Assembly: GCA_938002965.1 (NCBI GenBank)
Contig: CALKZY010000013.1
Coordinates: 1 to 64,000, forward strand
Direction of reading: 5' to 3'
Length of the DNA stretch: 64,000 nucleotides
From: an uncultured Acidimicrobiales bacterium
GTDB lineage: Bacteria; Actinomycetota; Acidimicrobiia; Acidimicrobiales; SZUA-35
The notes under the pieces: generated by a model
Told to the model about the DNA's origin: nothing
Seen by the model: the letters and a program-made list of their open reading frames with translations, nothing else
The model's database searches: none
Position numbers and translations under genes: made by a program
In this document: positions 7,580 to 58,960 of the stretch, piece after piece
How the letters are laid out: every line of letters begins with the position of its first letter
Numbering within the stretch: the stretch's first letter is position 1

Positions 7580-9139
7580 CTATGGTGCCGCGGCGACTGC
7601 GGGGAAGTCGGCCCAGCTGGGCACCCAACCGGTAACACCGGTGAGCAACGTGACAATTACTGTGATTGCCACCGCAGCGGTCAGCGCTGGCGGAATGATA
7701 ATTGGCGAATTGTCGCCGTCCCGAGCGGGCAGGAACCACATCTGCTTAGCCACGTTCAAATAGTAGAAGGCGGCGATAACCGAGTTGACAGCGGCAATCA
7801 AAGCCAACAAGGTGCCCCAAAGCTCCCAGCCATCGGTGAGCACCTTGAACACCCAGAACTTGGCCCAGAAACCACCCATGGGAGGAATCCCGGCCAGGGA
7901 GAACAAGAAGACGGTCATGGCAGCGGTAAGCCCGGGAGCGTAGTGCAGCATGCCGCCGAAAGACTCAATGTCACCGGACCGAGTCTTGCGTGCGGTGATA
8001 ATTACCACGGCGAATGCCCCGAGATTCATAGCGGCGTAAATGACCAGGTAAATGACAACCGCCTGCTGAGCTTCGGCCAATTGACCGCCGTAGACCGCCA
8101 GCGGAGCCAACATGTAGCCGGCCTGAGCGATACCGGAATAAGCCAACATGCGGACCACGTTGTCCTGACGCAATGCGATCAGGTTGCCGACAGTCATGGT
8201 GGCTGCCGACAGGATCCACATGAACGGCTCGACCAGATTGGGCAGATCGCCGAAGGCAAACAAGATGATGCTGATCAAGCCCACGAAGCCAGCAGCCTTT
8301 GACGCCACAGCCAAGAAGGCGGTGAGCGGCGTCGGGGCACCCTCGTAGGTGTCGGGGGCCCAGGTGTGGAACGGGACGGCTGAAACCTTGAAGGCGAAAC
8401 CGATGATGGTGAACAAAACACCGAGAGTGATGAACGGAGCCGAGTCGGTCGAAGCCAACGACTCGCCGATAACGGTGAGTCTGGTATCGGCAGCCGCTCC
8501 GTAGAGCAACGACATGCCGTACAGGAGAATGGCCGAGGCAAACACGCCCATCAGCATGTACTTGAGGCCCGCTTCGTTGGACTTGAGATCTCGTTTGCGC
8601 CAAGCGGCCATCATGTAGGCCGGGATGGAAACCAGTTCCAGGGCGATAAAGATCGTGACTAGATCTCGCGCTGACGTCATGACCAACATGCCGAGCACTG
8701 AGGCGGCGATCAACTGATAGAACTCGGAGTCGTAGTAGTCGCCTTCGGCCATGTAGTTACTGGCCAGCAACACCACCACGTAGCCGCTGAGGAGGAATAC
8801 GCCCTTCAATAGCAGGGCGTAGTTGTCGACCACGTAGGCGCCGTCGAATAGAACTCGGGGGATCTCGCCACCCAGGTCCCACAGGGTAAGCACCGGCACC
8901 ATGGCCAAGAGGAAACCGATACCGGTCAACGGACCAATGATCCGACGAACCCGATCAAGTCCGATCAAGTCGACGATGGTCACCAGGGCACCCCAGCCGA
9001 CCAGGATCAGCTCCGGGGCGAAGGCATGCCAGTCGATGTGGGGGCGGACAAACTCCGCGGCTGAACCCTGGGCGACAAGACTTTGCCCGACAATAGCCTG
9101 ACCGACGGCGGTCTGGGTGAGAAGGCTCTGAGCCAGCAC
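7580..9139 (-). CDS. nuoN: Complex I subunit NuoN (nuo-A copy)
   Basis: 519 residues with about 14 membrane helices, an antiporter-like proton-pumping subunit. The conserved segment FKVSAVPFHTWAPDTYEGAPTP holds the functional Lys and His, and LELVSIPAYMM holds the helix Glu. The N-terminal 30 residues (from a GTG start at 9139) are Gln/Ala-rich and could be over-extended. It is the last nuo gene of nuo-A, 5 bases after nuoM, and the methyltransferase gene follows. Confidence 0.95.
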   Translation of the reverse strand: MLAQSLLTQTAVGQAIVGQSLVAQGSAAEFVRPHIDWHAFAPELILVGWGALVTIVDLIGLDRVRRIIGPLTGIGFLLAMVPVLTLWDLGGEIPRVLFDGAYVVDNYALLLKGVFLLSGYVVVLLASNYMAEGDYYDSEFYQLIAASVLGMLVMTSARDLVTIFIALELVSIPAYMMAAWRKRDLKSNEAGLKYMLMGVFASAILLYGMSLLYGAAADTRLTVIGESLASTDSAPFITLGVLFTIIGFAFKVSAVPFHTWAPDTYEGAPTPLTAFLAVASKAAGFVGLISIILFAFGDLPNLVEPFMWILSAATMTVGNLIALRQDNVVRMLAYSGIAQAGYMLAPLAVYGGQLAEAQQAVVIYLVIYAAMNLGAFAVVIITARKTRSGDIESFGGMLHYAPGLTAAMTVFLFSLAGIPPMGGFWAKFWVFKVLTDGWELWGTLLALIAAVNSVIAAFYYLNVAKQMWFLPARDGDNSPIIIPPALTAAVAITVIVTLLTGVTGWVPSWADFPAVAAAP

Positions 9140-9144
9140 TGAGA

Positions 9145-10707
9145 TCAGCCTCCGGTTCCTAGGGCCGAGCCCGAGGACATGTTTTCGAATACATCACCGA
9201 TCAACGAAACCGGCTCGTTGGTTACGTCGAAGATCAAGCCCGGCACGAAGCCGAGCACGACGATCAAAATCAGCATCGGGACCCAGGCCACCCACTCGGT
9301 GAACACCGTGTCGTGGATGTTGGGATCGTCTGCGAACTCTTCCGACGGCTCACCGAATGCGGTGCGCTGCAACAGCCACAGCAGGTAAGCGGCAGCCAGG
9401 ACAGTGCCGATGGCGGCCACCACCATATATACCCGGAACAGCGTAGTGTTGAGACCTGCGTTGGGGTTGTAGGCGGCCAGGATCGCCGGGAACTCGCCCC
9501 AGAAGCCAGCCAGACCCGGAAGGCCTAGCGAGGCCATCGAGGTAATACCAAGGATCCAACCCATACGCGGCGCTTGGATGAGCAGACCACCCAGACGCTT
9601 GATCTCCAGCGTGTGGAAACGCTCTTTGACCGAGCCGGCAATGAAGAACAACATGCCTGTGATAAGACCGTGAGCGACCATGCCGAAGATGGCGGCATTG
9701 ATACCGAAGTCGGTAAGAGTGGCGATACCCAGCATCACGTAACCCATGTGGGCCACCGAGGAGAAAGCGATGAGCCGCTTCATGTCGGTCTGCGCCAAGC
9801 AGCCGAGCGCACCATAGATGATTCCGATGACAGCCAGCAGGCCAATCCAGGGGGCCCAAGCGACAGCGCCCTCTGGCAGGATCGGCAAGGCGATTCGAAC
9901 AAAGCCGTAGGTGCCGAGCTTCAACAGCACGGCGGCCAGGATCACCGAACCCTGGGTTGGGGCCTGAGTGTGAGCGTCAGGCAACCAGGTGTGGAAAGGG
10001 AACATCGGCACCTTAATGCCGAAGCCCAGGAACATGCCGCCGAACAGCACTGTTTGCTCAGTTGACGTGAGGCCCTCACTTTGAACCCGAGCCGCCAGCT
10101 CAACCATGTTGAAGGTCTCGGAGCCGGTCAGCCAATACAGGGCCAGGAAGCTGACCAACATGAAGGCCGAGCCGAACAGGGTGTAGAGGAAGAACTTGAT
10201 CGAGGCGTAGAGACGATCCTCGCCTCCCCACACGCCGATCATGAAGTACATCGGCAGCAGCACCACTTCGAAGAACACGAAGAACAGCACCAAGTCTCGG
10301 GCTACGAACGTACCGAGCATGCCGGTGTGCAGCACCAGGATGAGCATCAGGAACGCTTTGGCGTTACCGGGCGATGGAATGTGATTCCAGCTGTAGATGA
10401 TGACCAAAGGCGTGACCAGCAAGGTCAGCGCTATCAGTGGCAGCGACATGCCGTCGAGGCCAATGGCGTACCGGGCGTTGATGATGTCGATCCAGCTGCG
10501 GTCGACGGTGAACTGCATCGTTCCGCTGGCGCCGTAGTCGAAGTTGGTCAGCAACAGGGCGCCGACGATGAACGACACCGCCGAGGCGACGAGCGCCACC
10601 ATCTTGTGCAGCTCCTCATCCCGCTCGGGGATAAGCATCATCACGACGGCTCCCACCAACGGTGCGAACACCATGGCCGTCAATCCCCAGGAATTCAGGA
10701 AGTCCAT
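9145..10707 (-). CDS. nuoM: Complex I subunit NuoM (nuo-A copy)
   Basis: 520 residues, polytopic antiporter-like subunit. Key residues are visible: Glu in FFEVVLLPMYF and Lys in GIKVPMFPFHTWLPDAHTQAPT. Another conserved stretch is DMKRLIAFSSVAHMG. Length is normal. A 58-base gap separates it from nuoL and a 5-base gap from nuoN. No unusual insert is seen, in contrast to the nuo-B copy, which has an acidic His-containing tail. Confidence 0.96.
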   Translation of the reverse strand: MDFLNSWGLTAMVFAPLVGAVVMMLIPERDEELHKMVALVASAVSFIVGALLLTNFDYGASGTMQFTVDRSWIDIINARYAIGLDGMSLPLIALTLLVTPLVIIYSWNHIPSPGNAKAFLMLILVLHTGMLGTFVARDLVLFFVFFEVVLLPMYFMIGVWGGEDRLYASIKFFLYTLFGSAFMLVSFLALYWLTGSETFNMVELAARVQSEGLTSTEQTVLFGGMFLGFGIKVPMFPFHTWLPDAHTQAPTQGSVILAAVLLKLGTYGFVRIALPILPEGAVAWAPWIGLLAVIGIIYGALGCLAQTDMKRLIAFSSVAHMGYVMLGIATLTDFGINAAIFGMVAHGLITGMLFFIAGSVKERFHTLEIKRLGGLLIQAPRMGWILGITSMASLGLPGLAGFWGEFPAILAAYNPNAGLNTTLFRVYMVVAAIGTVLAAAYLLWLLQRTAFGEPSEEFADDPNIHDTVFTEWVAWVPMLILIVVLGFVPGLIFDVTNEPVSLIGDVFENMSSGSALGTGG

Positions 10708-10765
10708 GACTTGTGGTCCTTCTGCTCTCTAACTCAAAATCAAACTGATTGAAACCGTTGCAGCC

Positions 10766-13063
10766 CTACACCACAACAATGAATACTGCGACCAGCACCG
10801 TGGCGGCACCGAACATTAGCGTGGCGTACTGGCGGACCTGGCCCGACTGCATCCCACGAAGAAGTTGCCCCAACCTTGACGCCGTCGAACCGGAGGCGTT
10901 GACCGTCCCGTCGACGACACCCTGGTCAATGAAGCGGTAAACGAAACGACCGGCCAGCACAGAGGTGGCTCCCACCGCGTTGACGAACCCATCCAGAATG
11001 TTCTGGTTGGTCCAGTTGGCCGCTCGGGCCAGCGGGCCCTTGGTGGCTCCGGCAATCACACCGGTGTACAGGTGGTCCAGGTAGTACTTGTTTTCCAGCA
11101 CCCGATGGCCAACAGCCAAGGGCGGGATGCGCGAAGCCATGCCGTTGGCGTACTCAGTGGCCTTGGGGTCCATGGCGTACAGGCGCTTGTAGTAGGTCCA
11201 AACCAAGAACCCGGCGCCGACGGCCAGAGCGGTGGCCACGATAGCCAGCGACAAACTGGGCTTGGCGTGAGTGAATTTGTTGGCTTCTTTGGAAACAAAG
11301 GTGGCAACACCGGCCGGTTCCACCCAGTCTTCGAACTTGTGGGCCCAGCCTTCGGGCAGTCGGAGGGCCTTCACGAAGCCGCTCGGCATATTGAAGAAGC
11401 CGACAACGACCGCCATCGAGGCCAAGATGACCAGCGGCACAGTAATGCGAGGCCCGGACTCGTGCGGTTCCTCGTGGCCTCGGTAGTCACCGAAGAAGGT
11501 CAGCCAGACGGCCCGGGTCATGTAGGCGGCGGTCATGGCGGCGGTGATCATACCGAAGATGAAAGGAATGGTGTAGGTGCCGTTGCCTTCGGTCCCCGGC
11601 CAGACACCGGCGCCGACGAGAATTTCGTCCTTCGACCAGAACCCGGCGAGAGGGGGAATTCCGGCCAGGGCAGCCGTGCCAATCATGAAGGTGGCGAAGG
11701 TGGTGGGCATGTACTTGCGCAGCCCGCCCATGTCAGCCTTCATATCGAAGCTGTGATGGCAGGCGTGGCTGACCGAACCAGCACCCAGGAACAGGCAAGC
11801 CTTGAAGAACGCGTGGGTGAAGAGGTGGAACATACCTGCGGTGTAGGCACCCATGCCGAGTGCCAGAACCATGTAGCCCAGCTGTGAGACCGTTGAGTAG
11901 GCCAACACTTTCTTGATGTCGCGTTGGACGAACGCCAACAGGCCTCCACCGACGCAGGTCAGTCCACCGATGAAAGCCATCACGTTGATGGTTCCTCCGG
12001 CGATCCCGAAACCGACGAAGAACACCGGGTAGAGACGGCCGATCATGTAGACACCGGCTACAACCATGGTGGCGGCGTGGATGAGAGCCGAGACCGGCGT
12101 CGGTCCGGCCATAGCGTCCGGCAGCCAGGTGTGAAGAATGAACTGGCCGGACTTTGACATCACGGCCGCCATCAGGCACAGAGCGGCGATCCTCAGCGTT
12201 CCTTTGCTGATGTCTCCGGCCACAGCCATCTCGTTGATGGTCTTGATGCTGAAACTCTGGTCGGCGGCGAAGTAGAGGATGGTCATGCCGATGAGCAGAC
12301 CGATGTCGCCGACACGGTTGGTCAGGAAGGCTTTGAGAGCCGCATCTGAGTTGGCCTGATCCTCCCACCAGTGCCCAATCAAAGCGAACGAGCAGACGCC
12401 GACCAACTCCCAGCCAACGATGAGCTGCAGCGTGCTAGAGGACAGCACCATGAACAACATCGAGGCGGTAAACAGCGACAGGAAAGCGAAATAGTGGGTG
12501 TAGCGCCGGTCGCCGTTGACGTAATCGGTCGAGTAGACGTGGACGAGCAGAGAGATGAAGGTGACGACGAACAACATCATCACCGACTGCCCATCAACCC
12601 AGGTGCCGATGGAGATGCTGAATCCCTTGTCCTCGGCATGGCCATCTTCGTCGCCTGCAGCGTCGCTATGACCGTTGGCCTCGGTGCCGAGGGTGGAGCG
12701 GTTGGCGTCAGTACCGATACCGAACCATTCGACCTCGTTGATGACCGGAGCTCCTCGGACCTCGCCCTCTTCGGCGGTCAGATCGACGGCAACGGACTCG
12801 CCGCCGTCGACCACTAAGGAGAGAGCCTCTTCGGAGTGCCCTCCAGAGTCGGCGATGTCACCAATCCATGTGAAGGTGGTGAGGACGGCCAAGATGAAGG
12901 CCGTGACGATGGCAGCGATGCCGATCTCGGCACCCTTATTCGGTAGGCGTTTGCCGAAGAAGAGAATCAGCACGAAGGCAGCCGCAGGCAACGCGGGAAT
13001 CAGCCAGGCGTTGTCATACAGCCACGAGTGGGCGACAGCTTCTTCAGCAGCAAGCAGGAACAC
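10766..13063 (-). CDS. nuoL: Complex I subunit NuoL with periplasmic-loop insert (nuo-A copy)
   Basis: 765 residues, against about 610-650 for typical NuoL. The core is intact: the WELVGVCSFALIGHWWE region and HTWLPDAMAGPTPVSALIHAATMV, and the C-terminal lateral-helix region continues to the end. The extra length is mainly an acidic, Gly/Ser/His-containing stretch at about 70-148, in the loop after the second helix. That loop should face the outside. The GTG start at 13063 follows the nuoK stop by 3 bases. Confidence 0.95.
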   Translation of the reverse strand: MFLLAAEEAVAHSWLYDNAWLIPALPAAAFVLILFFGKRLPNKGAEIGIAAIVTAFILAVLTTFTWIGDIADSGGHSEEALSLVVDGGESVAVDLTAEEGEVRGAPVINEVEWFGIGTDANRSTLGTEANGHSDAAGDEDGHAEDKGFSISIGTWVDGQSVMMLFVVTFISLLVHVYSTDYVNGDRRYTHYFAFLSLFTASMLFMVLSSSTLQLIVGWELVGVCSFALIGHWWEDQANSDAALKAFLTNRVGDIGLLIGMTILYFAADQSFSIKTINEMAVAGDISKGTLRIAALCLMAAVMSKSGQFILHTWLPDAMAGPTPVSALIHAATMVVAGVYMIGRLYPVFFVGFGIAGGTINVMAFIGGLTCVGGGLLAFVQRDIKKVLAYSTVSQLGYMVLALGMGAYTAGMFHLFTHAFFKACLFLGAGSVSHACHHSFDMKADMGGLRKYMPTTFATFMIGTAALAGIPPLAGFWSKDEILVGAGVWPGTEGNGTYTIPFIFGMITAAMTAAYMTRAVWLTFFGDYRGHEEPHESGPRITVPLVILASMAVVVGFFNMPSGFVKALRLPEGWAHKFEDWVEPAGVATFVSKEANKFTHAKPSLSLAIVATALAVGAGFLVWTYYKRLYAMDPKATEYANGMASRIPPLAVGHRVLENKYYLDHLYTGVIAGATKGPLARAANWTNQNILDGFVNAVGATSVLAGRFVYRFIDQGVVDGTVNASGSTASRLGQLLRGMQSGQVRQYATLMFGAATVLVAVFIVVV

Positions 13064-13066
13064 GGG

Positions 13067-13366
13067 TCAGCCTTTGAGAATGTTGGCTTCGGCGACGTTA
13101 ATACTGCGCCGATTGCGGTAAATCAAGAGAACAATGGCCAAGCCCACGCCAACCTCGGCGGCAGCAACGGCAATAACAAACAGAGCAAAGACCTGCCCGG
13201 ACAGATGCTGGTGGAACGCTCCAAAAGCCACAAGGTTAATGTTCACGGCGTTGAGGATCAGCTCGATCGACATCAACACCAAGACACCGTTCTTGCGGGT
13301 CAGCACCCCGTACACACCGATGCAGAACAGCACGGCGGCCAGGATCAGGAACTGATTCAGGAACAC
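13067..13366 (-). CDS. nuoK: Complex I subunit NuoK (nuo-A copy)
   Basis: 99 residues with three membrane helices and GTG start. It contains [28 protein letters not shown], given here in two parts as [14 protein letters not shown] and [14 protein letters not shown], holding the conserved membrane Glu of this subunit. A second Glu is in [15 protein letters not shown]. It starts 6 bases after the stop of the 28-codon ORF. Confidence 0.96.
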
Positions 13367-13372
13367 CGGCCG

Positions 13373-13459
13373 CTACCTCTCCCGGTTCAGCCTGGAAGCC
13401 AAGGCGAACACAATCACAAAGAGGATGAGACACAACAGTGCAAGTAGTAGTAGCGACAT
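13373..13459 (-). CDS. 28-residue membrane peptide inside nuo-A (undescribed)
   Basis: Between nuoJ and nuoK, the minus strand has ATG (13457-13459) followed by 27 codons and TAG (13373-13375). The peptide starts MSLLLLALLCLILF, continues with hydrophobic Val, Ile, Phe and Ala, and ends in basic SRLNRER. That is one membrane helix of about 20 residues with a positively charged C-terminus, so the C-terminus should stay inside. An AGAAGGG stretch lies about 12 bases before the ATG. It starts 29 bases after nuoJ ends and stops 6 bases before nuoK begins, so it would be co-transcribed. The nuoJ-nuoK gap of nuo-B has no such ORF. I do not recognise it. A single-helix accessory subunit or assembly peptide is an inference. 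Confidence 0.65.
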   Translation of the reverse strand: MSLLLLALLCLILFVIVFALASRLNRER

Positions 13460-13488
13460 ATCGATCTAAACCCTTCTCGATCGTCCAG

Positions 13489-14100
13489 CTAGTCGCGCCT
13501 GGCTACAACGACAGCACCGATCAAGGCGGCCAGCAGTAGCACAGACAGTGCTTCAAACGGAACGATGTATGTACTAAAAATCTCGTCGGCAACAGCCTCG
13601 GTTCGTTGGGGAACCTGATCGGCCGGCAACCTTATGTCGCCGAAGCCCTCCCACAGCGAATAAACCATGACTGCGCCCAGACTGGCGGCGACCAAAGCCC
13701 CGATCCACTTCTGATCGTGGTCCAGGTCCGTCTCGGCTCCGATTTTGGCCCTGGTCAACATGACACCGAACAGCAGCAGGACCATGATGGCTCCCAGATA
13801 CACCAGGATCTGCGTCGCAGCGGCGAACTCGGCACCCAGAATCACATAGGTGGCAGCCACCGCCGACAGGACGACCAGCAGGTACAACGAGGCGTGGACC
13901 ACGTTATTCGTGGTCACCATGCGGAGCGCGGCCACAACAGCCACCGCGGCGATGATGTAAAAGAAGATATTGGCGATCCACGCACCAGTATCAGTGAGTG
14001 CGGTCTCTTGAGCCAGCAAAGCTGTCTGCCGATCCAGCACGGCGAGTTTTGGCAAGGTCAAAACTCGGCTAGTGAGCGAAGCGAACGGTACGAAGGGCAT
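13489..14100 (-). CDS. nuoJ: Complex I subunit NuoJ (nuo-A copy)
   Basis: About 203 residues from ATG 14100, which overlaps the nuoI stop by one base (TGATG). Five membrane helices, with the conserved ILVYLGAIMVLLLFGVML helix. The first 20 or so residues are encoded by a hairpin-containing repeat (14043-14088), and family homology starts only around GAWIANIFFYI. The native start may therefore be GTG at 14040, giving 183 residues. If so, the repeat is leader, not coding sequence. Confidence 0.93.
   Translation of the reverse strand: MPFVPFASLTSRVLTLPKLAVLDRQTALLAQETALTDTGAWIANIFFYIIAAVAVVAALRMVTTNNVVHASLYLLVVLSAVAATYVILGAEFAAATQILVYLGAIMVLLLFGVMLTRAKIGAETDLDHDQKWIGALVAASLGAVMVYSLWEGFGDIRLPADQVPQRTEAVADEIFSTYIVPFEALSVLLLAALIGAVVVARRD
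14043..14088 (-). repeat. Hairpin repeat, copy 1 (nuoI-nuoJ junction)
   Basis: On the minus strand this begins CCGTTCGCTTCGCTCACTA and ends in an 8-bp hairpin, CGAGTTTT…AAAACTCG with a 9-base loop (14043-14067). The first 19 bases differ at one position from a second copy at 16885-16927, which lies in the opposite orientation. It overlaps the annotated start of nuoJ. Confidence 0.6.
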
Positions 14101-14603
14101 CAAGGTCGCGGCACCTTCTTCTGCTTGACCTCGGCTCCGGGCTCATAGGACTCGAATTCCGGAACGGTCTCCATCCACTGACCAAGGCGTTCCTTGTCGT
14201 GAAGCAGGTCGGCGATGCGGGGCTCGGAGTACTCGTACTCCGGGCTCCAGAACAAGGCCTCGAAAGGGCATACTTCGACGCAGATCCCGCAGTACATGCA
14301 GAGGCCGTAGTCGATGTCGAAGCGATCAAGCTTGTTGACCGAACGGGGCTTGCCACCCGCTCGTCGAGGCGGGGCGAGAGTCTTGTGGCCCTCAATGTAG
14401 ATACACCAATCAGGACACTCACGGGCGCACAGCATGCACGAGGTGCAGTTGTCCTCGTGCAGAGCGATCACGCCACGGGCTCGGGGGGCGGGATTCTCTT
14501 TCTCATGCGGGTACTGCACGGTGTGCGAACCCTTGGTGACCGTCTTGGTGATCTCGCCAAACGTAACGCCGAGACCTTTGATGACGCCGGGGAGTTTAGG
14601 CAT
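14100..14603 (-). CDS. nuoI: Complex I Fe-S subunit NuoI (nuo-A copy)
   Basis: 167 residues. Two [4Fe-4S] motifs, CTSCMLCARECP and CMYCGICVEVCP, bind clusters N6a and N6b, which pass electrons towards N2. In nuo-A these would be the entry clusters, because NuoEFG are missing. The Lys/Pro-rich C-terminus is short and has none of the His-rich tail of the nuo-B copy. It starts right after the nuoH stop. Confidence 0.95.
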   Translation of the reverse strand: MPKLPGVIKGLGVTFGEITKTVTKGSHTVQYPHEKENPAPRARGVIALHEDNCTSCMLCARECPDWCIYIEGHKTLAPPRRAGGKPRSVNKLDRFDIDYGLCMYCGICVEVCPFEALFWSPEYEYSEPRIADLLHDKERLGQWMETVPEFESYEPGAEVKQKKVPRP

Positions 14604-15713
14604 CTAGAACACCACCTTGAGGACGCCGGTGACGGCGATGTTGACCAGCGAAATCGGGATGAGGACTTTCCAGGCAAACTTCTGGAGCTGATCCTCTCGG
14701 AACCGGGGGTAGGTGAACCGTACCCAGTAGACGATGAAGGTCAGGGCCAGCATCTTGACGAGCATCACGATGGGGCCGATGAGGTTGAACCACGGCGACA
14801 TGCCTGCAGCCGAGTTGCCACCTTCGGACAACACCGCTCCGGTGGCGTCCAACTCGGGAGCCAAGCCTGGGATGATGTCCATCAGGAACGGGGGAATCGA
14901 CCAGCCGCCAAGGAACAACGTTGCGCCCAGGAAGGCGAAGATGTTGGCGGTGGCGAACTCACCGATGAAGAACAGCAGGAACCGGAAACCTGAGTACTCG
15001 GTCATGTAGCCCGATACCAGCTCCGACTCAGCGATCGGCATATCGAACGGGGTCTGGGTCAGTTCGGCCTGGACCGCTATGAGGAAGATCATGAACCCGA
15101 CGAACTGGGTCAGGATGAACGGGTTACCGATGGCACCCCATCCGAAGATTTCTCCGTTGTGCTGAGCCATCACGATGTCCTGAAGGTTCAGCGAACCGGC
15201 CTGGATGACAACACCGACGACAGCCAACACCAGGGGAAGCTCGTAGGCGATCAGCTGACCTGCGGCTCGAAGGCCACCGAGGAGCGAGTACTTGGAGGCG
15301 CTGGCCCACCCGGCCATCAAGATGCCGATTACGGAGACAGAGCTGACGGCCATGGCAAAGAAAATGCCGGTTCCGAAGTTGGCGAAGAAGGCATCGGGAC
15401 CGAATGGCACGACCAATACCAACAAGAAGGTGGAAAGCAGCACCACATACGGCGATGCCTTGTAGACGAATTCGTCGGCTCGTGCCGGGACGATATCTTC
15501 CTTCTGCGCCCACTTGCCGACCTCGGCCACGAGCTGGAGCGAACCGTACGGGCCGGCTTCCATCGGGCCAAGGCGGCTTTGCATGAAAGACACCATCTTG
15601 AATAGATAGAGGTTCACGGTGGCGCCGGCCGGAATCAAAACGGCGACAAAGGCGAAGAGCAGCTTGAGGATGGTCTCTTGCCAGTAGGCAAGTTCGACAG
15701 CGAAGATGCTCAC
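14604..15713 (-). CDS. nuoH: Complex I subunit NuoH (nuo-A copy)
   Basis: 369 residues, about 8 membrane helices; forms the quinone chamber with NuoD and NuoB. Conserved patches: MQSRLGPMEAGPYGSLQLVA, the loop around DMPIAESELVSGYMTEYSG, and GWASASKYSLLGGLRAAGQ. GTG 15713 overlaps the nuoD stop (GTGA). In nuo-B the three genes nuoE, nuoF and nuoG lie before nuoG-nuoH at the equivalent point; here nuoD and nuoH are fused end to end with no remnant between. Confidence 0.95.
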   Translation of the reverse strand: MSIFAVELAYWQETILKLLFAFVAVLIPAGATVNLYLFKMVSFMQSRLGPMEAGPYGSLQLVAEVGKWAQKEDIVPARADEFVYKASPYVVLLSTFLLVLVVPFGPDAFFANFGTGIFFAMAVSSVSVIGILMAGWASASKYSLLGGLRAAGQLIAYELPLVLAVVGVVIQAGSLNLQDIVMAQHNGEIFGWGAIGNPFILTQFVGFMIFLIAVQAELTQTPFDMPIAESELVSGYMTEYSGFRFLLFFIGEFATANIFAFLGATLFLGGWSIPPFLMDIIPGLAPELDATGAVLSEGGNSAAGMSPWFNLIGPIVMLVKMLALTFIVYWVRFTYPRFREDQLQKFAWKVLIPISLVNIAVTGVLKVVF

Positions 15714-16882
15714 CGATCAATATCTCCAAGGATGAAGTACAAGGAAGCAAGGATAGTGATCACGTCGGGAACGTAGGTGCCCTTAAGCAGCCATGGGGTG
15801 ATCGACATGTTGGAGAAGCTGGCCGAACGAATCTTCACCCGGAACGGCTCCAAACCGCCTTGGCTGATTACGTAGTACCCCATCTCGCCTAGCGGGTTCT
15901 CGGTAGCCACATAGGCCTCGCCGGCGGGAACCTTGATGATGCGAGGCACCTTGGCCATGATTGGGCCCGAAGGAAGACCGTCCAAGAGCTGGTCGACCAT
16001 GTCACAGGCCTCGCGAGTCTCCTGCAAGCGAACCCAGTAGCGGGCGAATGAATCACCGTCGGGGTGGGTCCAAACCTTCCAATCCAACTGGTCGTAGACC
16101 AGACCGACCGGATTGTCCCGGCGGAGATCCCAGTCGACGCCGGATGCCCTGATATTGGCTCCGGAGAGACCGTACGACAGACCTACATCGGCAGGAATGA
16201 TCCCGATGCCACGAGTTCGAGCCTCAAAGATCTCGTTGCCGAGGAGCAGGTCTTCCATCTCGTCGCAGAAGCTTCGGATTGTCTCAAGCGCTGCTTTGGT
16301 GTCAGCGATCCACCCGGCGGGCAGGTCGTCTTTGACCCCGCCGATGCGATCGAAGTTCGGGTGGAAGCGGCCACCAGTGGCGGCTTCGATCTGGTTGAGA
16401 ATGAACTCCCGGTCACGGAAGGCGTAGAAGACCGGCGAGATGGCGCCAAGTTGCACGCCCATGTCGCCCAAGAACAGGGTTACGTTGGCGATGCGAGCCA
16501 TTTCGAACAACAGGGTTCGAATCCACTGGGCCCGAGGTGGTGCCTCGATCTCCATCAGCCGCTCGGCAGCCAGGATGAACGGCACCTCGTTGGCGAAGCT
16601 GCCAAGCCAGTCGATCCGGTTGATCAGCGTCGTGACCTGCGGATAGGTGCGAACCTCAGCCAGTTTCTCGTAGCCGCGGTGCATGTACCCCATGATGGGA
16701 TCAGCGGCCACCACCTCTTCACCGTCAAGGCGAAGCACGACACGCAACGTGCCGTGGGTGGCGGGGTGCTGGGGGCCGACGTTCAGCGTCATACCCTCGG
16801 CTTCAAGCTCGACGTTTACTCGAGCATCCGCAGCTTGAGAAGCGATGTACGCCATCTGCCGGCGATCAAGCATGTCGGTCAC
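15710..16882 (-). CDS. nuoD: Complex I 49-kDa subunit NuoD (nuo-A copy)
   Basis: 390 residues, GTG start at 16882 (ATG 16873 is an alternative). The quinone-site His is present in GPQHPATHG. GYMHRGYEKL has Arg at about 69, aligning with human NDUFS2 Arg85, the NDUFAF7 target. The nuo-B copy has HTG there. In the next conserved segment (human DRLDY) this protein reads NRIDW: Trp replaces the quinone-contacting Tyr. The C-terminus LGDIDR is complete. These differences suggest altered quinone handling. Confidence 0.95.
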   Translation of the reverse strand: MTDMLDRRQMAYIASQAADARVNVELEAEGMTLNVGPQHPATHGTLRVVLRLDGEEVVAADPIMGYMHRGYEKLAEVRTYPQVTTLINRIDWLGSFANEVPFILAAERLMEIEAPPRAQWIRTLLFEMARIANVTLFLGDMGVQLGAISPVFYAFRDREFILNQIEAATGGRFHPNFDRIGGVKDDLPAGWIADTKAALETIRSFCDEMEDLLLGNEIFEARTRGIGIIPADVGLSYGLSGANIRASGVDWDLRRDNPVGLVYDQLDWKVWTHPDGDSFARYWVRLQETREACDMVDQLLDGLPSGPIMAKVPRIIKVPAGEAYVATENPLGEMGYYVISQGGLEPFRVKIRSASFSNMSITPWLLKGTYVPDVITILASLYFILGDIDR

Positions 16883-16884
16883 AG

Positions 16885-16927
16885 CCGTTCGCTCCGCTCA
16901 CTACTCGAGTTTCGCCGTTGGCAAAAC
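16885..16927 (+). repeat. Hairpin repeat, copy 2 (nuoC-nuoD gap)
   Basis: CCGTTCGCTCCGCTCACTA, then CGAGTTT and a GCAAAAC end, on the plus strand. It is closely similar to the copy at 14043-14088 but has a less perfect hairpin. It lies immediately upstream of the nuoD start, against the direction of transcription. Confidence 0.55.
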
Positions 16928-16949
16928 ATCGGTCGGGACAAGACGATCA

Positions 16950-17711
16950 TCAGGCGTCACCGCCTTCGGCCGGTGCCGGCGTCTCAGAATCTGCCGAGCT
17001 GGCAGCCTCTGACTCCGGCGGCTCCTCCGGCATGGGTTCGACGTCGACGATGCCGGGCCAGGGCTTGATCAGCCGGGCCAACAGCGGATAGTCCTTGCGT
17101 AGCGGGTAGCCCTCAAACTCGACGGGAAGATAGAGATTTCGCATGTCGGGATTGCCAGTAAATGCAATCCCGTACATCTCGTGCGTTTCACGCTCGTGCC
17201 AGGCTGCACCGGCGTAGGTTTTGATCCATGTTCCGATGGCCAAGTCATCGCCGACATCGGCCTTCACGGTGACACCCAGGCCGGTTGAAAGACTGTATAC
17301 CCGAGCGAACACCTGGAATCTGGTGCCACCACCGGTGACGCCGTCTGCCCCAGTGCCGGTAAGACCCGAATCGTCGGAGTCGTCGTGCTCCTCGGACTCT
17401 GCCTGGGCTGGATCGATGTCAACGGCAGCCTCGAGGCTACGGCCGAACGGTGAGGGCATCCAGTCGATGGCGGCGAGCCATTCGAAGTAGCGGAAACGTT
17501 GACGCTCACGAAGATATTCGGCGGTATCGGACCAGGCCTCATTGGCAACCCGGACCCAAAGGTCCACACCAGGTTCCAGATGGCTGGCCACCAACGCATC
17601 ACCGAGCTCGCTGGTCATCGCCTCAAGCAGCGACTGACGAGCTTCGTCGGTTGCGGTCTCTTCGTTTTCGGAAGCCTGCGTGTCCTGATCAGCTGATGGC
17701 AAGAGGATCAC
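16950..17711 (-). CDS. nuoC: Complex I 30-kDa subunit NuoC (nuo-A copy)
   Basis: 253 residues from GTG 17711, which overlaps the end of nuoB by 23 bases. The frame is open further upstream, but that part is nuoB read in another frame. The family motif is [20 protein letters not shown] with YPLRKDYPL. Two acidic low-complexity parts are unusual: an insert rich in Asp, Glu, Ser and Gly in the middle (before [11 protein letters not shown]), and a C-terminal Glu/Pro/Ala tail of about 30 residues. Confidence 0.92.
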
Positions 17712-18189
17712 CCTTCCACTTCTCGGACATGTCCTCGTTCTGGATGCGCTCTTGAAGTAACACGATGCCTTCCAGCAACGCTTCGGGACGTGGCGGGCAG
17801 CCGGGCACGTAGACGTCAACCGGGATGATCTGGTCAACGCCCTTGGTCACTGAATAGCTGTCCCAGTACGGGCCACCACAGTTGGCGCACGAACCCATGG
17901 AAATTACGTACTTTGGCTCGGGCATCTGCTCATACAACCGACGAACTGCCGGGGCCATCTTGTCGGTCACAGTGCCGGAAACGATCACCAGGTCGGCTTG
18001 TCGGGGGCTGGCCGGCAGCGGGATAACGCCGAGTCGCATGACGTCGTAGCGAGGTGAGCCGAAAGCGGCTCCCATCTCAATAGCGCAGCAGGCAAGGCCC
18101 CACTGGTAGGCCCACAGCGAATACTTGCGGCTCATGTTGAGCAGCTTGCCGAGACCCTTTGGAATCTTGCCTGATTCAACTAGGCCCAT
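17689..18189 (-). CDS. nuoB: Complex I Fe-S subunit NuoB (nuo-A copy)
   Basis: 166 residues. Ligands of terminal cluster N2 are visible: the adjacent pair in CCAIEM, then Cys in GSCANCGG and in PGCPPRPEA. It binds NuoD and NuoH at the quinone site. The start overlaps nuoA by 10 bases. Confidence 0.96.
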
Positions 18190-18545
18190 CGCAACACGCC
18201 CTTTCGCCAGGCGTAGGCCAAGCCGAGCGCCAGAATGAAAATGAAGATGACCATCTCGATCAGACCGAACATTCCGTAGGCCTCAAGCCGGGTCGCCCAG
18301 GGAAAGATAAACACGGCTTCGACGTCGAACATCACGAACAACAGCGCAAATATGTAGTATCTGATCTGGCTTTGAGACCAGCCGGTACCAACGGGGTCGA
18401 CGCCGCTCTCGTAGTTCTGCAACTTGCCTGCAGTCGGGCGGTTCGGACGGAGAGCCGAAGCAAGGCCAATGAAGCCACCGACGACACCGATGGCAAGCAG
18501 GCCGAAAAGTAGGACGAGCAGGTACTCCCGCAGAAACTCGGACAC
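18180..18545 (-). CDS. nuoA: Complex I subunit NuoA (nuo-A copy)
   Basis: 121 residues, three membrane helices, GTG start. The loop between helices 1 and 2 reads YESGVDP, with Ser where mitochondrial ND3 and the nuo-B copy (YECG) have Cys. The conserved [11 protein letters not shown] helix follows. It is the first gene of nuo-A; about 220 bases without a gene precede it. Confidence 0.95.
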
Positions 18546-45623: not shown

Positions 45624-47279
45624 CTAGCGGAGGGAAGCCAGGTCCCGGGCGGCGGCCCACAGAACGTCGGTACCGATGGGGAAGATGCCGAGCACCACAG
45701 TGGCCACTGCGGCAATGGCAATTGCGGCCAGCGCCGGACGTGGAGTGTGGCCCCACACCATGGGTTCAACCGGCTCTTCACCGTCGAGGTCGGGAACAAC
45801 TTCGGCATCGGTGTCTTGTTCAGCGTCGGGATCGGTGTCAGGGCCGATGGCATGGGCCACCGCAGGCTGCGACGTCATGAACATCGACACCACGACCCGC
45901 AAGTACAGCACAGCGCTGACAACGGCAGCCAACATGGCGATCCCGGCCAGCACATAAGAACCAGTGTTGGCCGCAGCCAAGATAACTCGGAACTTGGCGG
46001 TGAAACCGGAGGTGAACGGCACTCCGGCCTGGGCGAACAGCAACACGGCGAACATCGCCGCTAACAGCGGCTTGGCTTTGGCCATACCCCGATAGTCATC
46101 CAACGTGTGGCGACCGTCGCCTTCGGCGCCGACAGCGGTCAGTACACCGAACGAGCCGATGACCATGATGGCGTAAGCCAGCATGTAGAACAGCAGAGCC
46201 TGAGCGCCACCAACAGCGGCGCTAGCCGTCACCTCACCGTCAGATCCACCAGCCAGCGTGTTCACCGCTATAAGCATGAATCCAGCGTGGGTGATGGACG
46301 AGTACGCCAACATCCGTTTGATGTTGGTTTGGGCCAACGCCAAGAACGAACCAAGAACGAGACTGGCCACAGCCAGGACCGCGATCAAAGGGCGCCAGTC
46401 GGCGACGTAGTAGCCAAAGCCGTCCCAGAACACCCGAACCATTCCGGCGAACCCAGCCACCTTGACCGCCGAAGCCATGAAGGCAACAACCGGTGTGGGC
46501 GAACCCTGGTACACATCAGGCGTCCACATGTGAAACGGCACGGCAGAAACCTTGAAAGCAAACCCGACCATGAGCAACGCCATAGCAGCCAGGATCAGCG
46601 ACGAATCCTCCACCGGGTTCAAGCCGGCGGCATTGGCCGCTCGGGCCCCGGCGATGACCTCAAGATTGGTCGAGCCGGTGGCCCCGTAGGCCAGAGCAAT
46701 GCCGTAGAGCATGAGGGCCGAAGCCACCGCTCCAAGGATGAAGTACTTGAAGGCCGCCTCTTGAGAATCTGAGCGGCGCAGATGAAGGCCAGCCAGCACG
46801 TAGACGGCGATGGACAGGATCTCCAGTCCAACAAAGATCAAGATCAGGTCACGAGCAGCGGCCAGAAGCATGCCTCCAGCGGCCGACATCAGTAGCAGCA
46901 CATACCAGTCCGGACCGTCGAACCGTTCCCGACGCAGGTAGCCGTCAAGCAACCCGCCTACCAGGAACAGCGAAGCCAGCAGCACACCCCACACGAAGAC
47001 GGTGAACCCATCAATGGCCAGCGACCCAGCGACAATGTCGCGGGATCCCTCATCTCGAACCGTTGACCACAGTCCCCGCAGGAACCAGCCGGCCAACGCC
47101 GCGGCCAAAATGGTGAACGCAGCCGGGAAGCCGCCGGTACGCAAACGGGGAACCACCGACGTGATGGTGATCAGCAGAATGCCGCCGACAGCCACAACCA
47201 GGAAGGGGCTGAGCATCGACCACTCGATATCAGGTGTAGCAATCTCATTCACTACCGCTTGAGCCACAAGGTTCTTCAT
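45624..47279 (-). CDS. nuoN: Complex I subunit NuoN (nuo-B copy)
   Basis: 551 residues, about 14 membrane helices. Functional Lys and His in FKVSAVPFHMWTPDVYQGSPTP; Glu in GLEILSIAVYVLAG. The C-terminal part has an acidic insert rich in Asp and Glu (about 490-515, near DTDPDAEQDTDAE) before the last helix. Last gene of nuo-B, 5 bases after nuoM; it converges with the esterase. Confidence 0.95.
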   Translation of the reverse strand: MKNLVAQAVVNEIATPDIEWSMLSPFLVVAVGGILLITITSVVPRLRTGGFPAAFTILAAALAGWFLRGLWSTVRDEGSRDIVAGSLAIDGFTVFVWGVLLASLFLVGGLLDGYLRRERFDGPDWYVLLLMSAAGGMLLAAARDLILIFVGLEILSIAVYVLAGLHLRRSDSQEAAFKYFILGAVASALMLYGIALAYGATGSTNLEVIAGARAANAAGLNPVEDSSLILAAMALLMVGFAFKVSAVPFHMWTPDVYQGSPTPVVAFMASAVKVAGFAGMVRVFWDGFGYYVADWRPLIAVLAVASLVLGSFLALAQTNIKRMLAYSSITHAGFMLIAVNTLAGGSDGEVTASAAVGGAQALLFYMLAYAIMVIGSFGVLTAVGAEGDGRHTLDDYRGMAKAKPLLAAMFAVLLFAQAGVPFTSGFTAKFRVILAAANTGSYVLAGIAMLAAVVSAVLYLRVVVSMFMTSQPAVAHAIGPDTDPDAEQDTDAEVVPDLDGEEPVEPMVWGHTPRPALAAIAIAAVATVVLGIFPIGTDVLWAAARDLASLR

Positions 47280-47284
47280 GTCAA

Positions 47285-48982
47285 TCAGTTCCCCTCGCCC
47301 GCAGCATCTTCGTCGCCGTGGTCTTCGTCGCCGTGGTCTTCGTCACCGCTGGCATGGGCCTTCTCAGCGGCGTCCACCAAACCAGCTCGACCCTGTCGCT
47401 CGACGGCCACTGGTTCAGTCTCGTAGAAGTTGGTCGAGCGATTCTCGACATGTTCGATCAAGACGTCAACCGACGGCTCGATGCGGTCGAGCACCGGTTG
47501 CGGGTAAACGCCCATCACCACGATCAGAACGAGCAGCGGAAGGATCCCCAGCAGCTCGGACGGCCGCAGATCTTCCATCGTGGCGTTCTCACCCTCGGCC
47601 GGTCCGTGGAATGTGCGCTGATAAGCCCACAGAAGATAAAGGGCAGCCAGAATCACGCCAGACACAGCAATGATGGCCAGCCAGCGGGTCCAGGTATCGG
47701 AGGCGAAGGCCCCAAGGAGAATCAAGAACTCTCCAACAAAGCCGTTCAAGCCGGGAAGCCCAACCGAAGACAACATGACCAGAGTGAACACCCCGGCCAT
47801 CAGCGGAGCCGCTTTCTGCAGACCACCGAGCGCTGAAATCTGTCGGGTGTGCCGACGCTCGTAAATCCAGCCGACCAAGATAAACAAGGCGCCGGTGGAG
47901 ACGCCGTGGTTGACCATTTGCACCACTGAGCCGGTGAGGCCCTGGTTGTTCAAAGCAAAGATGCCGAGGACGATGAAACCCATGTGAGCCACCGACGAGT
48001 ACGCGACCAGGCGCTTCAAGTCGGTTTGCATAGTGGCCACCGCAGCCCCGTACACGATACCGATGACACCAAGAGTCAAGAAGAACGGCGCCAGGTTGAA
48101 CACCACATCGGGGAACAAGAACACGCCGAACCGAAGCAGACCGTAGGTACCCAGCTTCAACATGACGCCGGCCAGGATGACTGAACCGGCGGTCGGCGCC
48201 TCAGTGTGAGCGTCAGGCAGCCAGGTGTGAACCGGGAACACCGGCACCTTCACGGCAAAGGCCAATGCGAAAGCCAGGAAGATCAAGGTGGCAGCGGTAG
48301 AGCCTAGATTGTGATTAGCGGCCAGCACCGTTACATCGAAGGTCAAACCACCGACGTCAGGGGCGGCGAGGATCACCAGACTGGTGATAGCCACCAACAT
48401 CAACGCCGAAGCCGCCATCGTGTAGAGGAAGAACTTCATCGCCGAGTAGATGCGTTCCCCGTGACCCCAACCGCCGATCAGGAAGTACATGGGAACCAAG
48501 ACCACTTCAAAGAACATGAAGAACAGCAGCAGGTCGAGAGCCATGAAAGCTCCCATCGAGCCGGCCATCAACAGCATCAGCCACATGTAATACGGCTTGG
48601 CGTCGTGGTGTGGTTCGGTGGTTAAGATCGCCACCGGGAACAACAGCCCGGTCAACACCACCAGGAACAACGAGATGCCGTCGATTCCGAGGAAGAACGA
48701 AAGGCCCAACTCGGAGAACCATTCCCAACGGGTCACAAACTGCAGTCCGCCATCGGCGGCATCAAAGTTCCACAGCACGTAAGCGGAAACCGCTCCGGTG
48801 ATGACCGAACCAACTAGGGCCGCCAATTTCAAATAGTCGGCCCGACTCGAGGGTAGAAGCGCCAGCACCGCAGCGGTGAACAGCGGAATGATAACCAGTG
48901 TCGGCAGCGTGGCGAAGGCCACGCCTTCGGCCGCCTCGGCGGCAAACAGAGTGGCAGTGAGAAGATGAAGGCCGGCAATCAT
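47285..48982 (-). CDS. nuoM: Complex I subunit NuoM with acidic His-containing tail (nuo-B copy)
   Basis: 565 residues. Core residues: Glu in FFEVVLVPMYFLIGG and Lys in AVKVPVFPVHTWLPDAHTEAPT. The tail after about 530 is soluble and contains GDEDHGDEDHGDEDAAGE, three copies of a short acidic His unit. The nuo-A copy lacks it. ATGA overlap with nuoL. Confidence 0.95.
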   Translation of the reverse strand: MIAGLHLLTATLFAAEAAEGVAFATLPTLVIIPLFTAAVLALLPSSRADYLKLAALVGSVITGAVSAYVLWNFDAADGGLQFVTRWEWFSELGLSFFLGIDGISLFLVVLTGLLFPVAILTTEPHHDAKPYYMWLMLLMAGSMGAFMALDLLLFFMFFEVVLVPMYFLIGGWGHGERIYSAMKFFLYTMAASALMLVAITSLVILAAPDVGGLTFDVTVLAANHNLGSTAATLIFLAFALAFAVKVPVFPVHTWLPDAHTEAPTAGSVILAGVMLKLGTYGLLRFGVFLFPDVVFNLAPFFLTLGVIGIVYGAAVATMQTDLKRLVAYSSVAHMGFIVLGIFALNNQGLTGSVVQMVNHGVSTGALFILVGWIYERRHTRQISALGGLQKAAPLMAGVFTLVMLSSVGLPGLNGFVGEFLILLGAFASDTWTRWLAIIAVSGVILAALYLLWAYQRTFHGPAEGENATMEDLRPSELLGILPLLVLIVVMGVYPQPVLDRIEPSVDVLIEHVENRSTNFYETEPVAVERQGRAGLVDAAEKAHASGDEDHGDEDHGDEDAAGEGN

Positions 48983-51369
48983 GAGAACAAACCTCCCAGG
49001 AACCAGGCCAACACCAGCACCGAGCCGAGGCCGATGCTGAGGGCGTAGCTTCTGACAAAACCGGGTTGCAGACCTTTGAAGACTGTTCCCAGGCGGCTCG
49101 ACAAGGTGGCCACCCCTCCCACAGCTCCGTCAACCACGTTGCGGTCAAACCATGCCATGGCGTTGAACAGCTCTCGTCCAGGGCCACCGAAGAAGTTGGC
49201 GTACGAACGGTCGATACCCCAACCGTCGGCCAGAATCGGACGTTCGATGGAGGCCGGGTTGCCCTTGCCCCGCATGTAGACCGAGAAGGCGGCGAAGATG
49301 GCCACAGCACCGACCGTGATAGCGATGACAGCCAAGACAATCTTGGTGTTGGCGGTGGCGGTCACATGAACCTCATTGCCAAACAACGACGGCTCCAGCC
49401 AATGCTCCAGGAAGTGGAGCTCCTTGGTGAACGGCAGGTTGAGCCCTCCCCCAACGGCGGCCAGGACTGCCAACACCACCAGCGGCAACGTCATGGTTGC
49501 CGGAGACTCGTGTGGATGATATTCCTGACGATGGTGGTAGCTCTCGGGAAGGCTGTCGGCCAGATCACCGGGGTCGAGGGCTTCGCTCCGCGCCGTCGCA
49601 TGGATGGCGTCACCAGCGGCACCGTTTTGGCCCGCCGGACCTCCATCGGCCATCCGAGCCACGTCGGCCTCGGCGGCGCGCACCGCGGCGGCGGCATCTT
49701 GCATAGCGGCGGTGGCTTCTTCGATCTTGCCTTCAGCCTTGAGTACCGCGTCTTCAGCCTTGGGAACACCGGCCTCAGCCTTGGTCAGTGCTTTGACTAG
49801 CTTCTCGTACCCGTCGTCGGCCTCTGAAGACCCGTCGACCTTAAGCTGAGCCTCAGACAACTTGCCTTGGGCTTTGACCACGGACTCTTGCTTCTTGGCC
49901 ACCTCTGCTTTGGCCTTCTCAACCGCGGTGGCCGCCGACTCCTCGGCCACCTTGGCCTCATCCACTGTTGTGCGAGCGGCCGCCACACGGCTGTCCCAAG
50001 CCAGTGCCAACTCCTCGGGACGAACATCAAAGAATCGAGTCCGACCGAAGAACGTGAGAATCACCTGGCGGGTCATGTAGAAAGCGGTGAGTAGGGCGGT
50101 CACCAGACCGATAGCCCACAGAGCCTTGCCGCCGATGGCATCGGCGTTCCAGGCGTACAGCAGAATTTCGTCCTTGGACCAGAACCCAGAGAACGGCGGC
50201 ACCCCGGCGATGGCCAACCAACCGATGATGAAAGTGAATGCGGTGATCGGCATGAACTTGCTGACGCCACCCATGCGACGCATGTCCTGTTCTTCGTGCA
50301 GCCCGTGGATGACCGAACCGGAACCAAGGAACAACAGCGCCTTGAAGAAAGCGTGGGTGATCATGTGGAACATCGCTGGCACATAACCACCGACACCGAC
50401 AGCTAGGAACAGATAACCCAACTGCGACACCGTTGAGTAGGCCAACACCTTCTTGATGTCGTTCTGGGCCACGGCGATGGTGGCCGCCACCAAAGCGGTA
50501 ATAGCGCCAACCCAGGCCACAAGACCGGTCGACCACAAGTCGGCCTGAGCGAGAACCGGGTTGAGGCGGGTCAACAAGAACACGCCGGAAGTGACCATGG
50601 TTGCAGCGTGGATGAGCGCCGAAACCGGAGTCGGGCCGGCCATAGCGTCAGGCAACCAGACAAAGAGCGGCAGCTGAGCAGACTTGCCAGCAGCAGCCAA
50701 CATGAACAGCAACACCAACGCGGTGGCAGTCCCCGAGGACAGCTCATCGGCCCGGGTCAAGATGTCGTCGTAGTTGATCGAGCCCAGGCTGACGAAGACC
50801 AAGAAGGTCGCCAACATGTACCCGAAGTCGCCGATGCGGTTGGTGACAAAGGCTTTCTTGCCTGCACTGGCGTTTGACTCGTCGGCGAACCAGAACGAGA
50901 TCAACAGGTACGAACACGCCCCCACGCCCTCCCAGCCGAGGAAAGTGATCAACAGGTTGTCGCCCAAGACCAACAGAATCATGGAACCGATGAACAAGTT
51001 CAGGTAGATGAAGAACTTGGAGAAGTTCTCGTCACCGTGCATGTACCCGATGGAGTAGAGGTGAATGAGCGTGCCCACGCCGGTGACAAACAGGCACATC
51101 GTGATCGACAACGGGTCAACCAACAGCCCGGCATCAACGGTGAACGAGCCAACGTCGAGCCAGGTGAACAGCTTGATGATCTCGAACCGGTCATCGGCAT
51201 CACGGCCAACCAGACCGATGAAGGTAATAAGGGTGAAGACGAATGCTCCAGACGAGGCCAACGTGGCCAGCCAACCGGCGGCCGGCTCGCCCAAACGGCG
51301 GCCGAACAACACCAAAGAAGCGAACCCGAGCAGGGGAAGGGCGGGAATGAGCCAGGCCAATTCGATCAT
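48979..51369 (-). CDS. nuoL: Complex I subunit NuoL with a coiled-coil insert (nuo-B copy)
   Basis: 796 residues, about 150 above normal. The antiporter core (1-448) is standard, including FVWLPDAMAGPTPVSALIHAATMV. At about 450-620 a soluble Ala/Lys/Glu-rich segment is inserted (DNA about 49510-50022), with heptad-like stretches such as ATAVEKAKAEVAKKQESVV. The normal sequence resumes at HPHESPATMTLPLVVLAVLA. The insert sits between helices in the later part of NuoL, before the lateral helix. The reading frame is continuous on both sides, so this is not a frameshift. Confidence 0.94.
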   Translation of the reverse strand: MIELAWLIPALPLLGFASLVLFGRRLGEPAAGWLATLASSGAFVFTLITFIGLVGRDADDRFEIIKLFTWLDVGSFTVDAGLLVDPLSITMCLFVTGVGTLIHLYSIGYMHGDENFSKFFIYLNLFIGSMILLVLGDNLLITFLGWEGVGACSYLLISFWFADESNASAGKKAFVTNRIGDFGYMLATFLVFVSLGSINYDDILTRADELSSGTATALVLLFMLAAAGKSAQLPLFVWLPDAMAGPTPVSALIHAATMVTSGVFLLTRLNPVLAQADLWSTGLVAWVGAITALVAATIAVAQNDIKKVLAYSTVSQLGYLFLAVGVGGYVPAMFHMITHAFFKALLFLGSGSVIHGLHEEQDMRRMGGVSKFMPITAFTFIIGWLAIAGVPPFSGFWSKDEILLYAWNADAIGGKALWAIGLVTALLTAFYMTRQVILTFFGRTRFFDVRPEELALAWDSRVAAARTTVDEAKVAEESAATAVEKAKAEVAKKQESVVKAQGKLSEAQLKVDGSSEADDGYEKLVKALTKAEAGVPKAEDAVLKAEGKIEEATAAMQDAAAAVRAAEADVARMADGGPAGQNGAAGDAIHATARSEALDPGDLADSLPESYHHRQEYHPHESPATMTLPLVVLAVLAAVGGGLNLPFTKELHFLEHWLEPSLFGNEVHVTATANTKIVLAVIAITVGAVAIFAAFSVYMRGKGNPASIERPILADGWGIDRSYANFFGGPGRELFNAMAWFDRNVVDGAVGGVATLSSRLGTVFKGLQPGFVRSYALSIGLGSVLVLAWFLGGLFS

Positions 51370-51371
51370 GA

Positions 51372-51677
<306 letters not shown>

Positions 51678-51769
51678 AATCTCTCTCCCAATACGTCACC
51701 GATGCGGTGCGCTCCGGCCGTTCCCGGGGCCGGCGGTTGGTCGTCAGCCTTTCGGCTGGTCCCTAGCTT

Positions 51770-52360
51770 TCAGCCTCGAGCCGAACCCGGCTCGTCGACT
51801 ACAAGTTCCTCTGCACCACGGTTGCGCACCATAACCACCGCACCCACGGTGGCAATAGTGAGCAGCAACGCCGTGGCCTCGAAAGCCATGACATTGCGGG
51901 TAAACAAATCTTCGGCCAACAGCTGAACGTCGGAGTCCGACTCGTTCAATTGGCTGATCGGTGCTGTTCTCGACTTAGTACCGGTCAGGGCGACCGCTCC
52001 GTCGGCACCACCAGGGCCGGAAAGGAACAAGCCACCAAGAACGAGAGCCAGCACCATACCGGCGATGACGGCGGCCGCTGAGCGTTGCCCGGCCAACGGT
52101 TCGAATCGAAGGTCTTCGGTGCGATCCACACCAAGCAACATGATCACGAACAGAATCAGAACAACAATGGCTCCGGCGTAAACAACAACCTGAACAAAGG
52201 CCAAGAAGTGGGCGCCCTGGGCGACAAATAGCACCGCCACTCCGAAGAACGAGGCCACTAGCGAAAGAGCGGCATGCACTGGGTGGTTGTTCAACACAAC
52301 GCCGACCGCGCCGCCGAGAATGATGGTGGCGGCAACCAGGAATACGAGCAGTTCAACCAT
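51770..52360 (-). CDS. nuoJ: Complex I subunit NuoJ (nuo-B copy)
   Basis: 196 residues, five helices, with VVYAGAIVVLILFVIMLLG. The start overlaps the nuoI stop by one base (TAATG). The N-terminus begins directly with the first helix, which supports the shorter start proposed for the nuo-A copy. Confidence 0.95.
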   Translation of the reverse strand: MVELLVFLVAATIILGGAVGVVLNNHPVHAALSLVASFFGVAVLFVAQGAHFLAFVQVVVYAGAIVVLILFVIMLLGVDRTEDLRFEPLAGQRSAAAVIAGMVLALVLGGLFLSGPGGADGAVALTGTKSRTAPISQLNESDSDVQLLAEDLFTRNVMAFEATALLLTIATVGAVVMVRNRGAEELVVDEPGSARG

Positions 52361-58328: not shown

Positions 58329-58960
58329 TAGGCCGTCTCCTTCTCCGACTCGGGTTCCGGTTCACGGTCGGCGAACCACTTGGGCTTGCCGGTTACCTCC
58401 GGTGATTCGATGCCGGCTGCACGCTCGGGGTCAAGATGTTGACGAACTCGTGCGAGCGTTCCATGATGAGGAACGTCATATCGGTTCCCGTCGCGCAAAT
58501 CGTTGATGAGCTTGTCGAAACCGTCGTTGTCGATCCGATATTCGTACCGGTAATTGACCTGCAGGCACGGGGCTTCAGTACAGGCGGCAATGCACTCGAC
58601 GTCTTCAAGGGTGAACATGCCATCGTCGGTGGTTCCACCGGGGCGAATGCCAAGAGTTTCCTCGGCGTGATGCAACAATTCTTCACCACCGTTGAGCTGG
58701 CAGGAAATGTTGGTGCAAATGTTCACCATGTACTTACCGACCTGTTCGCGCTTGAACATCTCGTAGAACGAACAGGTGCCGAGAACCTCAGCCGGAGTTA
58801 CCCCGACCAGCTCGGCGATGTGTTCCATGGCGTCGTTGCTGACGTATCCGGCCTGTTCCTGAGCTAAATGCAGCAGCGGAATGAGCGCCGACTTCGGGCG
58901 CGGGTAGCGGCCGACAATCTCTTTGGCCAGCAGTACGTTGTCCGGATTCAGGCGACTCAA
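58328..58960 (-). CDS. nuoE: Complex I 24-kDa subunit NuoE (nuo-B copy)
   Basis: 210 residues, TTG start overlapping the nuoD stop (TTGA). The [2Fe-2S] N1a ligands are in VNICTNISCQLNG and ECIAACTEAP. The N-terminal helical domain is complete (LLHLAQEQAGYVS). A charged C-terminal tail rich in Glu and Pro follows. Confidence 0.94.
   Translation of the reverse strand: MSRLNPDNVLLAKEIVGRYPRPKSALIPLLHLAQEQAGYVSNDAMEHIAELVGVTPAEVLGTCSFYEMFKREQVGKYMVNICTNISCQLNGGEELLHHAEETLGIRPGGTTDDGMFTLEDVECIAACTEAPCLQVNYRYEYRIDNDGFDKLINDLRDGNRYDVPHHGTLARVRQHLDPERAAGIESPEVTGKPKWFADREPEPESEKETA

Follow-up and report, generated by a model that had tools for sequence, protein, structure and literature searches.

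Results

The window (the whole stretch of 64,000 nucleotides that was analysed) carries an 11-gene nuo operon without nuoEFG, in whose nuoJ-nuoK junction lies a short open reading frame (ORF) on the same strand as its neighbours (Table 1). The frame begins 29 nt 3' of the nuoJ stop codon and ends 6 nt 5' of the nuoK GTG. Its product has one predicted transmembrane (TM) helix and a basic C-terminus, and by the positive-inside rule would adopt an N-out/C-in topology. The coordinates, the two spacers and a purine-rich upstream site, all part of the original prediction, were recovered, the last as GAAGGG. Within the leader, all three closest species keep GAAGGGTTTA and drift in the 5' part, which is the pattern expected of a ribosome-binding site.

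Table 1. Features at the nuoJ-nuoK junction and the surrounding operon.
Feature	Position	Strand	Remarks
nuo-A operon	7580..18545	(-)	nuoABCDHIJKLMN, without nuoEFG
nuoJ	13489..14103	(-)	start codon uncertain
Spacer	13460..13488	(-)	29 nt, follows nuoJ
Candidate ribosome-binding site of the ORF	13471..13476	(-)	GAAGGG, 11 nt upstream of the ATG
ORF	13373..13459	(-)	28 codons, MSLLLLALLCLILFVIVFALASRLNRER + TAG, ATG start; in G032 and G024 intact and under purifying selection
Candidate ribosome-binding site of nuoK	13376..13383	(-)	GGGAGAGG in the ORF 3' end, 9 nt before the GTG at 13366
nuoK	13067..13366	(-)	GTG start

The nuo-B junction had been described as free of such an ORF, and its nuoJ-nuoK gap of 92-98 nt holds no ORF of at least 18 aa. 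From ORF order and sequence, the second nuo operon of the window (45624-61927, reverse strand) has an apparently complete 14-gene set including nuoE, nuoF and nuoG, with a nuoK relative at 51375-51656. Two nuoK copies are also present in most family genomes searched.

The hydrophobicity of the ORF was compared with 40,000 random 122-nt sequences of 60% GC. An ORF of at least 25 aa occurred in 16% of these, an ORF with a hydropathy (over 18 residues) of at least 2.0 in 0.025%, and one of at least 3.0 in none of the 40,000. With a value of about 3.5 over 18 residues the window ORF thus exceeds chance expectation. No small ORF that lies for the most part in other intergenic sequence of the window rose above 1.5.

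The ORF is intact in two close species, G032 (MSLLILAVLCLILFVIVFALASRLNRER) and G024 (MSLFILALLCLILIVVVFILASRLNREG), whose products are 93% and 79% identical to the window peptide. Neither stop codons nor frameshifts were found in these two closest species, and changes are concentrated at the first and third positions of the codons, none or one being at position 2: differences by codon position are 4/0/6 between the window and G032, 8/1/8 between the window and G024, and 6/1/10 between G032 and G024. The corresponding dN/dS values are about 0.08, 0.20 and 0.20. When the same substitutions were placed at random in the ORF, the non-synonymous count gave p = 0.002, 0.024 and 0.013 and the position-2 changes p = 0.011, 0.004 and 0.005, in the same order of pairs. 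Two pairs were re-tested with the last codons, which contain the putative nuoK ribosome-binding site, excluded, and the outcome stayed the same (p = 0.002 and 0.025). Non-synonymous divergence of the ORF is also far below the synonymous divergence of nuoK (p = 2e-10, 1e-7 and 2e-5). The three pairs have branches in common and are not independent of one another. A conserved frame and a synonymous excess, by which a coding gene is recognised, were therefore both found, and the uninterrupted frame together with the codon-position pattern makes it very likely that the window ORF is a real protein-coding gene. All genomes compared are metagenome-assembled genomes (MAGs) or draft assemblies.

Two other members of the genus, G028 and G029, have a nuoJ-nuoK gap of 226-229 nt with two single-helix ORFs end to end, ORF A and then ORF B (in G029 MAVGLLVVVVLIGVLGMVGLFAAGFLMNRTKTDRNGGDR and MLTIVVLLVLVIIVAVIDYLLFSRLNDGVGSWARER). 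The TAG of nuoJ is directly followed by the ATG of ORF A, and the A/B and B/nuoK junctions both read TGATG, so that coupling from nuoJ through to nuoK appears preserved. In G030 the gap holds one ORF, MSLVLLLAAVLGVAMLGIFAVGFMMNRKGR. Between G028 and G029, ORF A shows differences of 9/3/15 (simulation p = 0.004), and its non-synonymous rate is not significantly lower than the synonymous rate of nuoJ plus nuoK (p = 0.13). ORF B shows differences of 5/1/5, being weakly constrained in the simulation (p = 0.13), with p = 0.003 against the neutral rate. At the sequence level, the evidence for coding is strong for the window form, which is carried by three species only, and moderate for the tandem pair, carried by two only. 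The window peptide is 46% identical to ORF B. Similarity among the carrier peptides exceeds that of shuffles, the window-type peptides matching best with B and the G030 peptide best with A; A and B themselves share only a marginal likeness.

The genus sample comprised 12 genomes, draft MAGs of uncultured Acidimicrobiales/Acidimicrobiia. Six carry an ORF in the junction (the window form in G000, G032 and G024, the pair in G028 and G029, a single one in G030); it is absent from G025, G026, G027, G031, G033 and G034. Beyond the genus, the junctions of another 23 family members, 62 members of the order and 40 members of the phylum yielded no such ORF. In total, about 130 other nuoJ-nuoK junctions at genus, family, order and phylum level are without it. 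Nearly all ORF-free gaps measure -4 to 30 nt, and the few longer ones outside the genus (up to 316 nt) contain no TM ORF; a gap of 486 nt at locus L149 is an artefact of the start point, nuoJ itself having been included in it. The proposal that the ORF is specific to the 11-gene operon thus holds within this genome and fails as a general statement: most junctions of the 11-gene type are without it, including those of six of the 12 genus members, so the ORF as a general mark of the 11-gene form is unsupported. In another genus of the family (G018, locus L013), the 316-nt gap contains a 69-bp unit repeated 2.5-3.5 times (1840-2081). This repeat extends an open frame, in which a membrane helix pattern like that of the window ORF was not seen.

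In a tree built on NuoH, I, J, K and L, the six carriers and the non-carrier G025 form one clade of seven members with a support of 85/93, which is below the strong level, and a tree in which the six carriers form a clade that excludes G025 is not rejected (p = 0.16). With the window peptide as query (E up to 10), searches of the complete genus genomes gave matches only at the junctions of G000, G032 and G024. Searches with ORF A recovered only the junctions of G028, G029 and G030, apart from weak matches nearly all within large proteins, and order-wide profile searches gave weak matches only, mostly within large ORFs. The 29-nt spacer of the window is similar to the 3' end of ORF A in G028 and G029 (shuffle p 0.005-0.01), and may possibly be what remains of a first micro-ORF lost by deletion. 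The likeness is weak or absent in G032 and G024, which makes this deletion step tentative. The simplest reading of these comparisons would be an ancestral A+B pair followed by differential loss.

Discussion

Our analysis points, with somewhat better than even confidence, to a genuine translated, young microprotein that likely serves the 11-subunit complex I as an accessory or assembly subunit of its membrane arm. According to this scenario the ancestral sequence originated between nuoJ and nuoK in a single clade of the genus. It would probably have been a pair, A followed by B, with stop and start codons that abut or overlap and so couple it to nuoJ and nuoK. The window lineage would have retained one copy, most similar to B, G030 would have retained A, G028 and G029 both, and G025 neither. 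Synthesised beside NuoJ and NuoK, the peptide would insert as a single N-out/C-in helix and most likely pack on the membrane arm of the complex without NADH module, aiding assembly or stability, a role comparable to that of NdhP and NdhQ in cyanobacterial NDH-1 and of SdhF in mycobacterial complex II. The original prediction of a single-helix subunit is borne out as far as the coding gene, the one TM helix and the basic C-terminus are concerned; the subunit status itself is suggested by operon position, coupling in relatives and precedent. Position in the operon, translational coupling and single-helix topology together argue for a membrane-arm accessory or assembly subunit. Against such a role, the complex of G025 and of all other relatives works without the peptide. 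We conclude that the ORF, which gene callers miss, probably encodes an accessory or assembly subunit particular to this lineage.

The main rival is that the ORF is translated merely as a coupling element or spacer: an insertion would have widened the junction, and the ORFs would be kept only to let ribosomes pass from nuoJ to nuoK or to hold them at the membrane, with the residues of the peptide mattering little. The overlapping stop and start codons of G028 and G029, the candidate nuoK site inside the ORF end and a hydrophobicity kept more strictly than the residues would all fit. We nevertheless consider it unlikely, because the window trio shows constraint at the residue level even when the codons of the nuoK site are left out, the RLN/MNR boundary motifs are conserved in the peptides, and nuoJ and nuoK are coupled in relatives that have no spacer at all. 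Small TM proteins are often regulators of unrelated transporters, and the peptide could accordingly be a mere passenger of the operon that acts in another membrane complex or as a free regulatory peptide. The site inside the operon, the coupling to nuoJ and nuoK, the tandem pair at the same junction and the finding that the genus genomes hold no copy outside this junction make that quite improbable. Least credible is a chance ORF or a non-coding or RNA element. The frame has only 28 codons and the region is unremarkable in base composition, but a comparably hydrophobic ORF arises in fewer than one in 1000 random 122-nt sequences and the codon pattern is conserved in relatives. Predicted folding is not superior to that of shuffles (z +0.98), and a promoter and terminator search of the region gave no match.

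A further reading concerns the origin rather than the function of the ORF and is compatible with an accessory subunit: a partial gene duplication of the nuoJ 3' end, which encodes the last TM helix. The segment SLVLLLAAVLG of the G030 peptide aligns to SVLLLAALIG in the last helix of NuoJ (shuffle p = 0.003), and ORF B of G028 and G029 lies above codon shuffles at the DNA level (p about 0.01). No excess was seen in DNA or protein for the window ORF and its orthologues in the two close species (p 0.12-0.8), the answers differ between copies, and the sequences are of low complexity and hydrophobic. With this mixed evidence the duplication was not adopted and seems distinctly unlikely.

Among known small subunits, NdhP and NdhQ resemble the proposed microprotein subunit in being single-TM peptides of less than 5 kDa that belong to a complex I form without NADH module (PMC4131877, PMC7021789). 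NdhP is a single-TM subunit of less than 5 kDa that is needed for NDH-1L and its stable assembly, with the same predicted N-out/C-in topology (PMC4131877), and NdhP and NdhQ flank NdhD1 (PMC7021789). In contrast to both, the window ORF lies inside the nuo operon, and binding of its product to the complex is presumed. Homology was not adopted: four peptides gave no significant match in Pfam and NCBIfam, and PDB chains, NDH-1L included, gave no match (best E 1.3, to an unrelated transporter). SdhF of Mycobacterium smegmatis succinate dehydrogenase 2 is likewise a single helix of about 3 kDa, in an actinobacterial respiratory complex; it is found mainly in mycobacteria, was not seen on gels and was identified by cryo-EM and mass spectrometry (PMC7447783). 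SdhF, however, belongs to complex II, where it blocks a quinone site, and no sequence link to the nuo-encoded peptide was found. CydX of cytochrome bd oxidase shares the short single-TM form, the respiratory operon and a presence that varies among close relatives (PMC5322542). It serves another enzyme, its gene follows cydB, and its C-terminus is predicted to be periplasmic (PMC5322542), whereas that of the window peptide is predicted to be cytoplasmic. Membership in the CydX family was rejected given the site between nuoJ and nuoK rather than in a cydAB operon and the lack of a Pfam match. No account of an ORF of this kind in a nuo operon turned up in the literature searched.

We tentatively suggest, at slightly less than even confidence, that the ORFs form a new family, namely single-helix accessory subunits in tandem that belong to an 11-subunit complex I and whose birth, duplication or pairing, and partial loss all took place inside one bacterial genus. 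The core subunits of bacterial complex I are usually regarded as a fixed set, and gene callers overlook microproteins of fewer than 30 residues. If true, such a family would provide a snapshot of the addition of a supernumerary subunit to complex I, and sister species with two copies, one or none would be a directly testable case for the origin of a small accessory subunit. A single-helix gene that is under selection and limited to one young clade would also offer a candidate for an unseen helix in structures of the 11-subunit complex.

Long gaps also separate the aligned nuoD and nuoH in several members of the genus (298 nt at locus L034 of G029, 426 nt at locus L038 of G026). No small TM ORF was found in these gaps, part of which may be an unaligned NuoH N-terminus; they lie at the site that nuoEFG occupy in 14-gene operons.
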